Positions 2,562 through 51,540 of a stretch of DNA of 52,681 nt are shown piece by piece. Origin of the DNA: Saprospiraceae bacterium (GTDB lineage Bacteria > Bacteroidota > Bacteroidia > Chitinophagales > Saprospiraceae); assembly GCA_022841745.1 (NCBI GenBank), contig JALHQW010000042.1, positions 19,940 through 72,620 of the forward strand, written 5' to 3'. Numbering within the stretch: position 1 is the first letter of the stretch; each line of letters starts with the position of its first letter. The notes under the pieces were generated by a model. That model did no database searches and was not told the DNA's origin. It saw nothing but the letters and a program-made list of their open reading frames with translations. The translations under genes were made by a program, and so were the position numbers.

Positions 2562-2664
2562 AAGGATTGAAGGATTGGAGGATTGAAGGATTGAAGGATT
2601 GAGGGATTGAGGGATTGGAGTCCCCACCCTTCAATCCTTCAATCCTCCAATCCTCCAATCCTTT
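2562..2664. repeat. Octamer-based inverted repeat between the esterase gene and aroC
   Basis: The left arm has seven tandem 8-bp words of the type RGGATTGR. After a 9-bp centre, the right arm carries four copies of the same word in inverted orientation. The transcript can fold into a long hairpin in several registers. The right arm includes the last ten codons and the stop codon of aroC, and the left arm reaches to 5 bp from the esterase start codon. Confidence 0.9.
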
Positions 2665-3719
2665 AAATAATGGTCAACGATTACCAAAGCGGCCATCGCT
2701 TCCACGATGGGCACGGCACGGGGAAGCACGCAGGGGTCGTGGCGGCCTCGGCCTTCGACCTGTACGGATTCGCCTGCTTCATTGACTGATTCCTGCGAAG
2801 CGACAATGGTCGCTACTGGCTTAAATGCAACGTTAAAGTAAATGGGCATTCCGTTTGAAATGCCGCCTTGTATGCCACCTGAATGGTTGGTCCGGGTAAG
2901 GATTTGTCCATTTTCGTTGAAAAAAGGATCGTTGTGCTCGCTGCCCCGCATCGAAACGCCTGCAAAGCCGGAACCATACTCGAAGCCCTTGCAAGCATTG
3001 ATACTGAGCATGGCCTTGCCAAGATCAGCATGTAGTCGGTCGAAAACGGGTTCGCCAAGGCCAACGGGGCAATTCTCGACGACACAACTCACAATGCCCC
3101 CAATGGTATCGCCATCCTTGCGAACATCCCTGATTAGGGCCTCCATTCGCTCCGCAATGGGCAGGTCGGGACAGCGCACAGGTGTGGCCTCGATTTGGGA
3201 GAAGTCCAGTTCCTCCCATGCTTTTTCCAAGGCAATATCCCCTACCCTGCTTACCCAAGCGTTGACTTTTACCCCGATTTTTTGAAGTACCATTTTTGCG
3301 ACAGCACCTGCTGCTACCCTGGACGCTGTTTCCCGTGCGCTGGAACGGCCACCGCCCCGATAGTCTCGCAATCCATATTTCATCTGATAAGTGAAATCGG
3401 CGTGACTGGGACGGTACTTGTCGGCAATATGGGAATAGTCCTTTGACTTGGCATCCTCATTTCGAATCAGCAAGGCTATTGGCATCCCTGTTGTTTTTCC
3501 TTCAAAAACACCGGAAAGAACTTCGACTTTATCGCCCTCTTGCCGTTGGGTAACAATGGCAGACTGTCCAGGCCTTCTTCGGTCAAGCTCATTTTGAACA
3601 AAATCAAGGTCGAGGAAAAGGCCCGGCGGGCAACCATCAATGACGACTCCTATGGCTGGGCCATGCGACTCGCCAAAAGTGGTGATACGGAAGGTATTTC
3701 CAAATGAATTGCCAGGCAT
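2631..3719 (-). CDS. aroC: Chorismate synthase
   Basis: A 362-residue enzyme making chorismate from 5-enolpyruvylshikimate-3-phosphate, the last common step of aromatic amino acid synthesis, using reduced FMN. Family signatures are clear: [23 protein letters not shown] at the N-terminus, RRRPGQS, the [11 protein letters not shown] segment, and [13 protein letters not shown] followed by a conserved C-terminal FKP and GRHDPC block. Length matches the family. The final ten residues ([10 protein letters not shown]) are translated from the intergenic octamer repeat at 2562-2664, so this tail is probably not part of the ancestral protein. No other aro genes lie nearby. A -7-like element is present at 3784-3791. 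Confidence 0.97.
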
Positions 3720-3783
3720 TGGTTGGCTATTTGCTGTTGGCTATTTGGATCAGCTCCCAAAAGCACAACGAGTAAATTGGCCA

Positions 3784-3791
3784 CAAAGGTA
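3784..3791 (-). promoter_or_regulatory. Possible -7 element (TACCTTTG) for aroC
   Basis: The minus strand reads TACCTTTG, a perfect TAnnTTTG match, 65 bases upstream of the aroC start. No TTG lies at the usual spacing, so only half of the promoter is recognisable. Confidence 0.45.
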
Positions 3792-3881
3792 GGTGAAGTT
3801 GGAAGCCAGATTAAGGCAAGGAATTTTTTTTTGTAGAGAGATGCCAAACATTGAACTAACGACCAATGCCCCAATATTCAA

Positions 3882-4427
3882 TCAAGCCACGCAACATTGC
3901 ACAAGTTGCACATAATCAGGCCTTTCAGAGGCGATTCGGTGGATGAAGCGCTCTTTTATCCGGCCTTTTTGAAGAATAAAAACACCTGGCATTTGTGTGG
4001 AATCGCCTAGGTTTTTGGCCATCTCCAGTTCAACATCTAGCTCACGCTTGACCTGGAAGCCACGAATCCATGTCTGTAGTCCATAGAGTTGAGTGAATGA
4101 ACCGCGCTGTAAGCCAAATGCCCGGTAATAACGCTGAGTAGGGTCACAGACATGGGTAGCTCCCTGCAAGTTGAATTTTGCGAAGTAATCATCGGCGGTA
4201 TGCTCATCGCCCATGTGTACGAAAACGATTTTAATACCGCCCCGCTCAATGGTTTTCCGCCGAACGGAAATATCGTTGAGTGCCTCCTTACAGAAAACGC
4301 AGCCAAAATGGCGAAGGAACACCAACATAACCGGGCCTTTCTCAGTCAACGAAAAGAGGTCGTCTCCCTCGTTGGTAAGCATTTCTTCTAAAAAGAAAAT
4401 TTCTTCATCTGAATCTATCGGCAACAT
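3882..4427 (-). CDS. Peroxiredoxin-like thioredoxin-fold protein (AhpC/TSA type)
   Basis: A 181-residue cytoplasmic protein with a thioredoxin fold. The segment GPVMLVFLRHFGCVFCKE (Cys43 and Cys46) resembles the active-site region of peroxiredoxin-like 2 / AhpC-TSA_2 proteins, which carry CxxC after a beta strand. This is followed by KIVFVHMGDE and CDPTQRYYRAFGL, the usual second half of these domains. The function is probably thiol-dependent peroxide or disulfide reduction; the physiological partner is unknown. No signal peptide is visible. It is transcribed on minus between the T9SS protein gene and aroC, 162 bp from the latter. Confidence 0.75.
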   Translation of the reverse strand: MLPIDSDEEIFFLEEMLTNEGDDLFSLTEKGPVMLVFLRHFGCVFCKEALNDISVRRKTIERGGIKIVFVHMGDEHTADDYFAKFNLQGATHVCDPTQRYYRAFGLQRGSFTQLYGLQTWIRGFQVKRELDVELEMAKNLGDSTQMPGVFILQKGRIKERFIHRIASERPDYVQLVQCCVA

Positions 4428-4512
4428 ACTTGAAGTATTGGCTGAAAATTACCCTTCGAAACACATGAAATCCAATTCGGTTTAAAAAAGAAGGTGAAAG
4501 ACCGCAGGAGCC

Positions 4513-50178: not shown

Positions 50179-50194
50179 AAGCTATGGTAGTTTA

Positions 50195-50917
50195 TCAAGT
50201 AGCTTCGGTGGTTGCTATATTCCCAATATGTTCTACCAAGGAATCGAGGTTCCAGGCATTGTCCACATGGTATTCACCGATTTTAGTTCGGCGCAGTGCA
50301 GTCAGGTAAGCACCACTGCCGAGCTGTTTCCCCATGTCAAAAGCCAAAGAACGAATATAAGTGCCCTTACTGCACTTCACCCGAAAATCAACCTGTGGAA
50401 TCTCAATGCGGGTGATGTCGAATTCATAAATCTTGACAGGTCTTGGTTTAACTTCTATGGTAATGCCCTGCCGGGCTTTTTTATAAAGTGGCTGCCCGTC
50501 CACCTTAATGGCAGAAAACATGGGGGGCAATTGCTCCAAGTCTCCTATGAATGACAGCCTTGCAGTTTCAATCGCTTCTTCGGTTATGTGCTCAATCGGG
50601 AAAAAAGCATCAGGTTCGGATTCCGCATCATAGCTCGGCGTGGTAGTCCCAAGCACCAAGGTTCCAACATACTCCTTGGCTTGGTCTTGGTATTCAGACA
50701 ACTTCTTGGTGCTTTTGCCAGTGCAGATGATAAGAAGGCCTGTGGCCATGGGGTCAAGCGTACCCGCATGACCTACCTTGATGTTTTTCAAGCCAAGGCT
50801 ATGACGTAGGCTGATACGGATTTTGTTCACGACGTCGAAGGATGTCCATCCATGTGGCTTGTCAACCAACAGGGTAGCTCCGTCCACCAACCTTCGACTC
50901 GGCAAAGGGTCTTCCAT
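50195..50917 (-). CDS. truB: tRNA pseudouridine(55) synthase TruB
   Basis: A 240-residue enzyme making pseudouridine 55 in the T-loop of tRNAs. Motif TLLVDKPHGWTSFDVVNKI at the start, KVGHAGTLDPMATGLL with the catalytic Asp, then the conserved YVGTLVLGTTTPSYDAE and GTYIRSLAFDMGKQLGSGAYLTALRRTKIG. The start is set at ATG 50917 (MEDPLPSRRLVDG) since the 42 open codons upstream (to 51043) show no family similarity. In related genomes uppP usually lies between the DUF3098 gene and truB; here only 131 bp without that gene separate them. Confidence 0.96.
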   Translation of the reverse strand: MEDPLPSRRLVDGATLLVDKPHGWTSFDVVNKIRISLRHSLGLKNIKVGHAGTLDPMATGLLIICTGKSTKKLSEYQDQAKEYVGTLVLGTTTPSYDAESEPDAFFPIEHITEEAIETARLSFIGDLEQLPPMFSAIKVDGQPLYKKARQGITIEVKPRPVKIYEFDITRIEIPQVDFRVKCSKGTYIRSLAFDMGKQLGSGAYLTALRRTKIGEYHVDNAWNLDSLVEHIGNIATTEAT

Positions 50918-51048
50918 GTAAATGGATTTAAGGCCAAAAGGCTTCCCGATTGGACAGGAACAACATTGGCCCTTGATGACTAAACTGGCGATATTGCACA
51001 GTTCAGCATATTGTATTAAAAAAATATACCAATTCCAAAACAAACCAA

Positions 51049-51393
51049 CTATGCAACCTCTGCTGCTGGGGTAACCTCGTGCATTGGCTTCTTGAAAATG
51101 GCAATGATTTCGACCACAAGCCCCAGCAGGATAATGGCTGGTGCTATCACCGTACGGCGACGGCTGTAAATAAGGCTCTCATCCCAGGTGTTGGGGTCAG
51201 GCATTTGGCCACCGCTCATCAGCACCAAGCCGAATGCAATCAACGCAAGCCCGACCAACATGAGCAGGTAGTTGGTTTTGTCAAAAATCAGGATGGTGCT
51301 CTTGGGCGCAACTGCTGCCGCCTTCGAACGCTGAACTGTTGGTGCCGACTTGGTGGGCGTGGTAGCTACAACAACTTTCTTCTTTGTACTCAT
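51049..51393 (-). CDS. DUF3098 membrane protein
   Basis: A 114-residue inner-membrane protein. A basic and Ala/Thr-rich N-terminus is followed by two membrane helices: TNYLLMLVGLALIAFGLVLMSGG (about residues 41-63) and TVIAPAIILLGLVVEIIAIF (about 81-100). The connecting loop PDPNTWDESLIYSRRRT is characteristic of DUF3098. The gene regularly follows ftsX in Bacteroidota, so a role beside FtsX in cell division or envelope work is plausible but not shown. Confidence 0.92.
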   Translation of the reverse strand: MSTKKKVVVATTPTKSAPTVQRSKAAAVAPKSTILIFDKTNYLLMLVGLALIAFGLVLMSGGQMPDPNTWDESLIYSRRRTVIAPAIILLGLVVEIIAIFKKPMHEVTPAAEVA

Positions 51394-51449
51394 TTTTTAT
51401 GTTTTAACTCCCAATAAACCGATTTGGGAAAGAAGTTCATTTTACAATA

Positions 51450-51540
51450 AAAGTACAAAGTACAAAGTACAAAGTACAAAGGAGCGGGCCAACTGTGCAT
51501 GCCCTCCTTTTTACTTTCTACTTTTTACTTTTTACTTTTA
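51450..51540. repeat. Heptamer-based inverted repeat after ftsX
   Basis: Left arm: four tandem AAAGTAC words (51450-51481). Right arm: CTTTTTA-type heptamers (51508-51540) in inverted orientation. Between them GGAGCGGGC and GCCCTCC extend the stem. The right arm includes the ftsX stop codon (51538-51540). Confidence 0.88.

Follow-up and report, generated by a model that had tools for sequence, protein, structure and literature searches.

Inverted arrays of short tandem words in a Saprospiraceae genome and their association with S23-family genes

What leads a bacterial genome to carry, at one locus after another, a short tandem word followed across a short centre by the same word in inverse orientation? 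The question arises from a 52,681-nucleotide stretch of a Saprospiraceae bacterium (contig JALHQW010000042.1, positions 19,940 to 72,620; hereafter the window), part of a genome of 8.43 Mb in 178 contigs (G000), in which an earlier note made from the sequence alone had described inverted repeats built of 7–9-bp words at gene ends. We examined the window with 60 further stretches of G000, together 1,247,545 bp, of which four (L015, L023, L029 and L030) were picked for known AAAGTAC arrays and slightly inflate array density, and compared them with 13 congener genomes (G001–G013). Word arms of this kind enclose genes of the S23 family elsewhere in G000, in congeners and on plasmids of other phyla, and the association is strong and replicated in independent sets. 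On balance, the word hairpins of the window, apart from a transposable element at 46135, are probably gene-less relatives of a class of S23 selfish elements resembling ribosomal intervening sequences (IVSs).

PF05635 is the S23, or 23S rRNA intervening-sequence protein, family, also called 'four helix bundle protein'. At site 1946 in G011 and G006, inverted word arms enclose an orthologous pair of genes that Pfam assigns to 23S_rRNA_IVP (PF05635). Host searches with the G011 protein led to L021 by tblastn and to L060 by phmmer, and a five-sequence profile, with seeds including L021, L060 and two outside sequences, added L067 and, weakly, L408 (E 0.09); all four score above the Pfam cut-off for PF05635. 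All four of these host S23 genes lie between inverted word arms within flanks of ≤260 bp; among 839 other genes put through the same test, 1 does. Of 14 inverted pairs with long loops and periodic arms that a scan returned, four enclose S23 genes. A wider profile identified a further S23 gene flanked by arms in G001 (L288). The L067 protein matches PDB 2rld, which provides a structural starting point for S23 and no function.

Plasmids provided a second set. Among 28 S23 genes hand-picked from 46 listed matches, mostly cyanobacterial and also from Bernardetia, Chlorohelix and Monoglobus, inverted arms of periodic sequence occur within 160 bp of 22, compared with 2 of 97 other genes at the same loci (Fisher P = 5e-17), and these 22 use about 18 different words. 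The plasmid S23 genes have protein-gene neighbours and do not lie in 23S rRNA helix 9, 25 or 45, as judged from PLSDB tables that list no RNA genes. Among viral contigs, four stretches fit a pattern and none encodes an S23 relative. On five cyanobacterial plasmids (L418, L419, L424, L425 and L429), S23 genes with word arrays alongside sit in clustered regularly interspaced short palindromic repeat (CRISPR) or defence operons, in positions between cas6 and cas4, cas2 and cas1, and drmD and pglX.

This arrangement recalls a ribosomal system. In the excerpted text of PMC4990558, the 23S rRNA IVS with an S23 open reading frame (ORF) is called a selfish element, and IVSs are described as having replaced tetraloops in 23S rRNA helices. 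Like that system, the loci described here place an S23-family gene between inverted arms (4 of 4 host and 22 of 28 plasmid loci), and the L423 element replaces host sequence rather than duplicating it, in a manner that resembles tetraloop replacement: in L442, whose flanks are 88–90% identical, a cytosine methyltransferase gene runs on unbroken, and at L423 the element occupies the place of ~330 bp of it. Unlike the IVSs of that excerpt, our loci lie outside rRNA, their arms consist of tandem 7–8-bp words that vary by locus, and gene-less hairpins far outnumber gene-bearing ones in our sample. The word CAATTCG occurs once in the uninterrupted L442 methyltransferase gene, 8 bp past the left junction, with none at the right junction, and in this single case the word match at the L423 insertion point is suggestive only.

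Some S23 relatives share a word, as though the gene moved along with its arms. Similar S23 proteins stand in several cases between the same or nearly the same words in different gene contexts, including L426 and L427 (84%, TAATTCG), L426 and L423 (78%, TAATTCG/CAATTCG), and L416 and L431 (72%, AGGGAAC/AGGGAAG). Over 401 non-independent pairs with words assigned by hand, S23 likeness and word distance correlate with a Spearman coefficient of -0.30. A gene-less allele also exists: on a plasmid of Nostoc ATCC 53789 (L441), AGGGAAC-type inverted words surround ~100 bp of different sequence that lacks an S23 gene, and at the same site L416 carries words plus S23, with flanks 95.6 and 97.3% identical. 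We take a word arm, an S23 gene and an inverse word arm as the full form of the element, and propose that each S23 lineage may keep its own word while the arms are renewed through tandem turnover, and that gene-less copies may descend from, or be moved by, S23 elements and would be kept in permissive places such as gaps within operons, gene ends and protein loops.

Several observations weigh against this proposal. Six of the 28 plasmid S23 genes have no detected periodic inverted arms: L393 lacks arms, L420 has words on one side only, L418 and L424 have words on both sides in direct orientation, the inverted flanks of L428 are not word-like, and those of L429 are inverted by eye and were missed by the detector. 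In another Bacteroidota metagenome-assembled genome (MAG; L120), one S23 gene stands without word arms and a second has a weak 26-bp repeat. The plasmid loci are partly orthologous (L423/L435/L438 and L416/L417) as well as hand-picked, and some alike S23 proteins carry different words (L426/L436, 74%, and L423/L436, 70%, at word distance 3). At the single junction read (L423) there is no target duplication. The words found by species in a loop of the E1 dehydrogenase, described below, are no closer to one another than random (2.79 vs 2.94), and the arms of a hairpin share a word and overall do not share unit order, so neither arm is a plain copy of the other. The window, its word loci included, showed no S23 gene. 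Most arrays likewise have none close by, and S23 elements may therefore just land in word hairpins that were already there; such a landing preference is the main rival of our proposal. In its general form, a copying error, slippage in 7–8-nucleotide steps with fold-back or template switching, would make the hairpins, and S23 genes and IVSs would settle in existing loops, as the excerpt of PMC4990558 describes for IVSs in place of tetraloops; we regard this as possible and rather doubtful. Word sharing by some S23 relatives across contexts is not what a neutral landing site would predict.

The arrays themselves form an abundant class of narrow period. Counting as an array any Tandem Repeats Finder (TRF) row with at least 3.4 copies, the host sample holds 123 arrays of period 7, 74 of period 8, 10 of period 9, 6 each of periods 10 and 6, and 1 of period 12, with none of period 4, 5 or 11 in 1,247,545 bp; with overlapping rows removed the counts are 117 for period 7 and 70 for period 8. 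This near confinement to 7–8 bp speaks against a general copying error. Arrays are densest in intergenic DNA, of which 180 kb contain 20 periodic inverted pairs and 72 + 48 arrays (periods 7 and 8, 120 in all); when the same DNA was dinucleotide-shuffled once, the kind of control that the earlier note had proposed, no array and no periodic inverted pair resulted. Among 60 pairs of neighbouring arrays ≤250 bp apart, 45 are inverse-related, 2 direct and 13 neither, compared with 4.5% inverse-related among random pairs. The inverted repeats that the earlier note named are thus visible and non-random. Its further statement that each locus has a different word fails at genome scale, where a later census of 356 arrays in 1.65 Mb gave 140 word families, led by AAGGATTG (24), AATCCGC (19) and AATCACG (15). 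The words at the four host S23 loci stand for families of more than one array each, and rank among the 140 as AATCCGC second, AATCACG third, AAAACCCG seventh, ACCTCAT twenty-second and AAAACCCC twenty-third. A conserved core in the short centres was considered and rejected, since the centres are 60% GC and share no motif by eye.

The arrangement of arms has a nearly fixed polarity, which plain slippage leaves unexplained: the arm that is G-rich and poor in C leads in 43 of 45 pairs from the host, in 12 of 13 from congener stretches and in 8 of 10 from Saprospiraceae loci. This polarity would follow from a templated writer, telomerase-like or array-copying, that adds words at broken 3' ends which are then joined, giving G-rich words at the 5' side, a short junction and inverse words at the 3' side. 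Such a writer would also suit arms that share a word without its unit order, the replacement of host sequence without duplication at L423, and a vocabulary particular to each genome. Set against these points, about 140 word families would require many templates, and polarity is weaker in the arms flanking S23 genes (17 G>C, 4 C>G and 1 tie); we consider a writer improbable. Mirrored unit order, as arm-to-arm copying predicts, was also considered and rejected: it appears at 2 of 30 informative loci (L048:6064 and L055:16619; p<0.05), with an overall Wilcoxon p=0.61.

The earlier note had placed the repeats at gene ends and stop codons, which would suit ordinary intrinsic terminators, or hairpins at mRNA 3' ends, built of repeats by coincidence. 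With genes assigned by simple ORF and codon-bias calls, array densities per gap in the G000 sample are 0.225 (same-strand), 0.222 (convergent) and 0.123 (divergent). The roughly halved frequency between divergent genes is as terminators would have it, and several arrays do follow stop codons. Within same-strand gaps, however, 45 arrays lie closer to the stop and 43 closer to the start, and 72 of 202 arrays fall within called ORFs; the proposed enrichment at stop codons therefore did not materialize. Of the in-ORF arrays, 35 of 72 lie >150 bp from both called ends, of which four are period-9 repeats, at least three of these resembling collagen-type coding repeats in L064; many of the remainder are close to a called start, and the true start may lie downstream of them. 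Two single long ORFs, L034:3133-6141 and L045:17290-19998, each contain two to four in-frame word arrays.

The clearest in-gene cases come from orthologous genes. PheT is an essential gene, and its orthologues carry GGATTGC/GGATTTC words in eight species; two of these, G006 and G011, have one-armed arrays that have been homogenized, all units reading CCGAAAT in G011 and CCGCAAT in G006. In G010 a one-armed array of CAGTCC type is present. A loop of the E1 dehydrogenase before VCSLGDASVTEGE likewise holds in-frame arrays whose word differs by species: GGATTGC in G000, GATTTAC in G001, G011 and G013, CACCAAT on one arm in G004, GGGTATT in G008 and G012 and, weakly, GGAAATT in G007, with no array in five other genomes and G006 not covered. 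The pheT and E1 inserts shown keep frame and are free of stops, the stops flagged in six genomes falling outside the inserts. In-frame arrays inside pheT and E1 indicate that in-gene arrays are not terminators, and terminator function as a selected trait inside these genes is unlikely. With these arrays, the absence of a stop-over-start preference and the frequent difference of words at orthologous sites, which runs contrary to the earlier note's own test for terminators, we consider terminators a very improbable account of the class as a whole.

Comparison of the window sites with sister species, a check the earlier note had also suggested, showed that shared sites often hold different words, against terminators. 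At 2562 the word is retained in G001 and G013, and G012 has ATTGTTG. At 13881, inverted words are of TTCATGG type in G011 and GTTTCAA type in G013; at 51450, G010 has inverted AATGGCTG words, with no words in G006 or G011; and at 14954, G007 has inverted GGATTGA words, with no array in G011. Site 11732 is a 41-bp gap without an array in G011, and site 14440 has no array in either of the two congeners compared, G011 and G013. Beyond the window, site 19528 of L059 reads GAGTTTC in G000, GGGATGA in G006 and GAGTTAT in G012, and site 16784 of the same stretch holds about four kinds of word across five species. In L060, site 16966 has no words in G008, and site 6337 has other hairpins in four relatives, words of another kind in G012 and a one-armed array in G001. 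Two stretches at L059:8430-8860 and L060:7790-8125 belong to a separate dispersed hairpin family with a GGGGTTATCAAACCCCG core and many matches in G006 and G011.

Sites thus last while words change, as a copying error would have it, and the concerted turnover of units in pheT fits that explanation as well. Co-occurrence of sites between species was tested for three features, in 75 non-independent comparisons at 25 of 65 gaps: any inverted repeat (odds ratio 10.2, p=0.0014), periodic inverted arrays (7.1, p=0.018) and tandem arrays (2.5, p=0.13). Vocabularies differ genus-wide: AATACCC occurs 22 times in G008, 9 times in G012 and 0–3 times elsewhere, and AATCGTN and AATCCGN are plentiful in some species and absent from others, reversed controls being zero in each case. 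The E1 word is not always common in its genome, the sole AATCGTN match of G011 being that of its own E1 gene. Stepwise evolution of the word at each site was a weak candidate (mean distance 2.3 vs 2.9, p=0.0175, from 20 pairs at 10 sites and helped by identical words) and was set aside.

The inverted arrangement, which the earlier note could not name, is partly nameable. As the available parts of the respective papers describe them, inverted pairs of GGGAATC heptamers occur in Xanthomonas (PMC4692102), and the P6b stem of the Nostoc trnL intron carries Class I TDNGATT and Class II NNTGAGT heptamers (PMC4476775). Our arrays share with the Xanthomonas repeats their convergent pairing, over-representation in non-coding DNA and under-representation between divergent genes, and differ in having many words, exchanged at shared sites from one species to another, in place of one word family. 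They share with the Nostoc stem inverted heptamers at a fixed site with word classes repeatedly replacing each other, and differ in being genome-wide, coding loops included, rather than confined to a single intron locus. TAACTGA repeats have been described in Beggiatoaceae, Cyanobacteria and Bacteroidetes in the excerpted PMC4679880, and tandem heptamers, strain-specific sets, occasional placement in ORFs and lack of a known mechanism apply here as well; that excerpt stresses direct repeats, to which inversion and the S23 link are added. An S23 association does not figure in the excerpt of PMC4692102; the inverted words found here bracket S23 genes. In Cyanobacteria, tandem heptamers go by the name of short tandemly repeated repetitive (STRR) sequences. 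Heptameric STRRs are marked by tandem 7-bp units that are dispersed and mostly intergenic, and window-type arrays have each of these properties. Repetitive extragenic palindrome (REP) systems with their REP-associated tyrosine transposases (RAYT) and miniature inverted-repeat transposable element (MITE) systems offer a further likeness, in that non-autonomous hairpins may have a gene-bearing partner; the word hairpins, the MITE at 46135 excepted, differ in having no fixed ends. A literature search, with subscription papers and preprints mostly outside its coverage, found no S23–heptamer array link among the matches listed, and such a link may have been published elsewhere.

A physical link thus appears to join two long-standing puzzles, the heptamer repeats in bacterial genomes and the S23 protein of rRNA IVSs. 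A bolder form of our proposal, which we put forward tentatively and hold to be doubtful, is that S23 genes and inverted 7–8-bp arrays constitute one class of mobile element in Bacteroidota, Cyanobacteria and other phyla, each lineage recognizing or writing its own word and gene-less hairpins being moved in trans. If true, one class would account for heptamer repeats in Xanthomonas, Cyanobacteria and Bacteroidetes alike, for which the available portions of those papers settle on no origin; tiny selfish elements of one family would have left their mark on intergenic DNA in several phyla, and even on loops of proteins; and word differences between species would be a readable record of element turnover. 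The role of S23 would also become testable, given the likeness of PF05635 to the Avd protein of diversity-generating retroelements noted in the excerpt of PMC10053308.

Locus 46135 stands apart as a plainly mobile MITE, distinct from the S23-linked word hairpins. It spans 163 bp (46135–46297) with the terminal inverted repeat CAATGGTTCGTGAAGTT, pairs 46135–46183 with 46249–46297 (49 bp, 76%), and is bordered by the target duplication TAACT/CAACT, with one mismatch. At least 40 genome copies occur at ≥84% identity (40 of the 131 candidates were scored), and the best 30, aligned over 163 bp, are 92.6–100% identical to 46135 and carry A/T-rich target duplications of 5–7 bp that are exact in 24, have one mismatch in 5 and are absent in 1. 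A single mobile element behind all loci is rejected since 46135 is a separate MITE. The earlier note had held that the loci are not copies of one mobile element: the words do differ, yet their recurrence leaves several element families possible, and 46135 is itself mobile. Loci 2562, 13881 and 51450 do not have the features of MITEs; among the top 14 matches per query in the sample, they share only word stretches and at most a short centre, with no shared flanks or fixed ends. One MITE copy stands mid-way in a word hairpin (L158), and insertion of this second kind of element into a hairpin is as the copying-error explanation would have it. In a diverged MITE copy at L059:157-502, the word arrays of both arms are hugely expanded.

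In the window, an Rfam scan detected tRNAs only; the loci are located at, or in the gaps between, genes for proteins or tRNAs, none in 23S rRNA, and the protein genes beside them are ordinary, encoding chorismate synthase, phosphopantetheinyl transferase, exonuclease, DUF2452, MnmA (best matches 75–78% identical, mostly in Saprospiraceae MAGs), DUF3098 and an FtsX-like protein. The first array (2561–2664) consists of seven copies of AAGGATTG (2562–2617) followed by 4.5 copies of its inverse CCTTCAAT (2628–2663), with 37-bp arms at 97%; the chorismate synthase gene (2631–3719, minus strand) overlaps the right arm, at 2628–2664, with its 3' end, so that the stop and last codons of that gene are encoded by the array. 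At 11732–11765, where the 4'-phosphopantetheinyl transferase ORF (11096–11734, plus strand) ends, there is an arm of TGATTGC/GGATTTC words, and its partner of CAATCCA/CAATCCC words, absent from the earlier account, lies 150–180 bp away at 11928–11961, at the 3' end of an exonuclease ORF (11960–12700, minus strand). The array at 13881–14002, of GGATGGTT/GAATTGTT words with a 53-bp centre, pairs 13881–13909 with 13963–13991 (29 bp, 90%). Two loci had been offered as weaker examples: 41406–41507, with GGCAGT words between two tRNA genes, is present and weak (47 bp, 72% complementary), and the array at 14435–14463, four copies of AGGGATG over the stop codon of the DUF2452 gene (13891–14442, plus strand), has one arm only. 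An overlooked array of three TTTTACT copies lies at 14954–14975, ahead of an ORF starting at 14983. Lastly, the array at 51450–51539 comprises 4.6 copies of AAAGTAC (51450–51481) and 4.7 of CTTTTTA (51507–51539), between the ftsX-like (51538–52401, minus strand) and DUF3098 (51049–51393, minus strand) ORFs.

Other repeats occur in the window. Three neighbouring near-perfect hairpins at 42709–42862 have relatives at L046, L048 and L049 and represent another dispersed inverted-repeat family. The window opens (1–229) with a perfect direct repeat of 110 bp, accompanied by a hairpin and a tRNA-like copy next to tRNA-Lys. An ORF of 4748 codons (18544–32790) contains about 28 repeats of 252 bp (20254–27422) and perhaps encodes a large surface protein.

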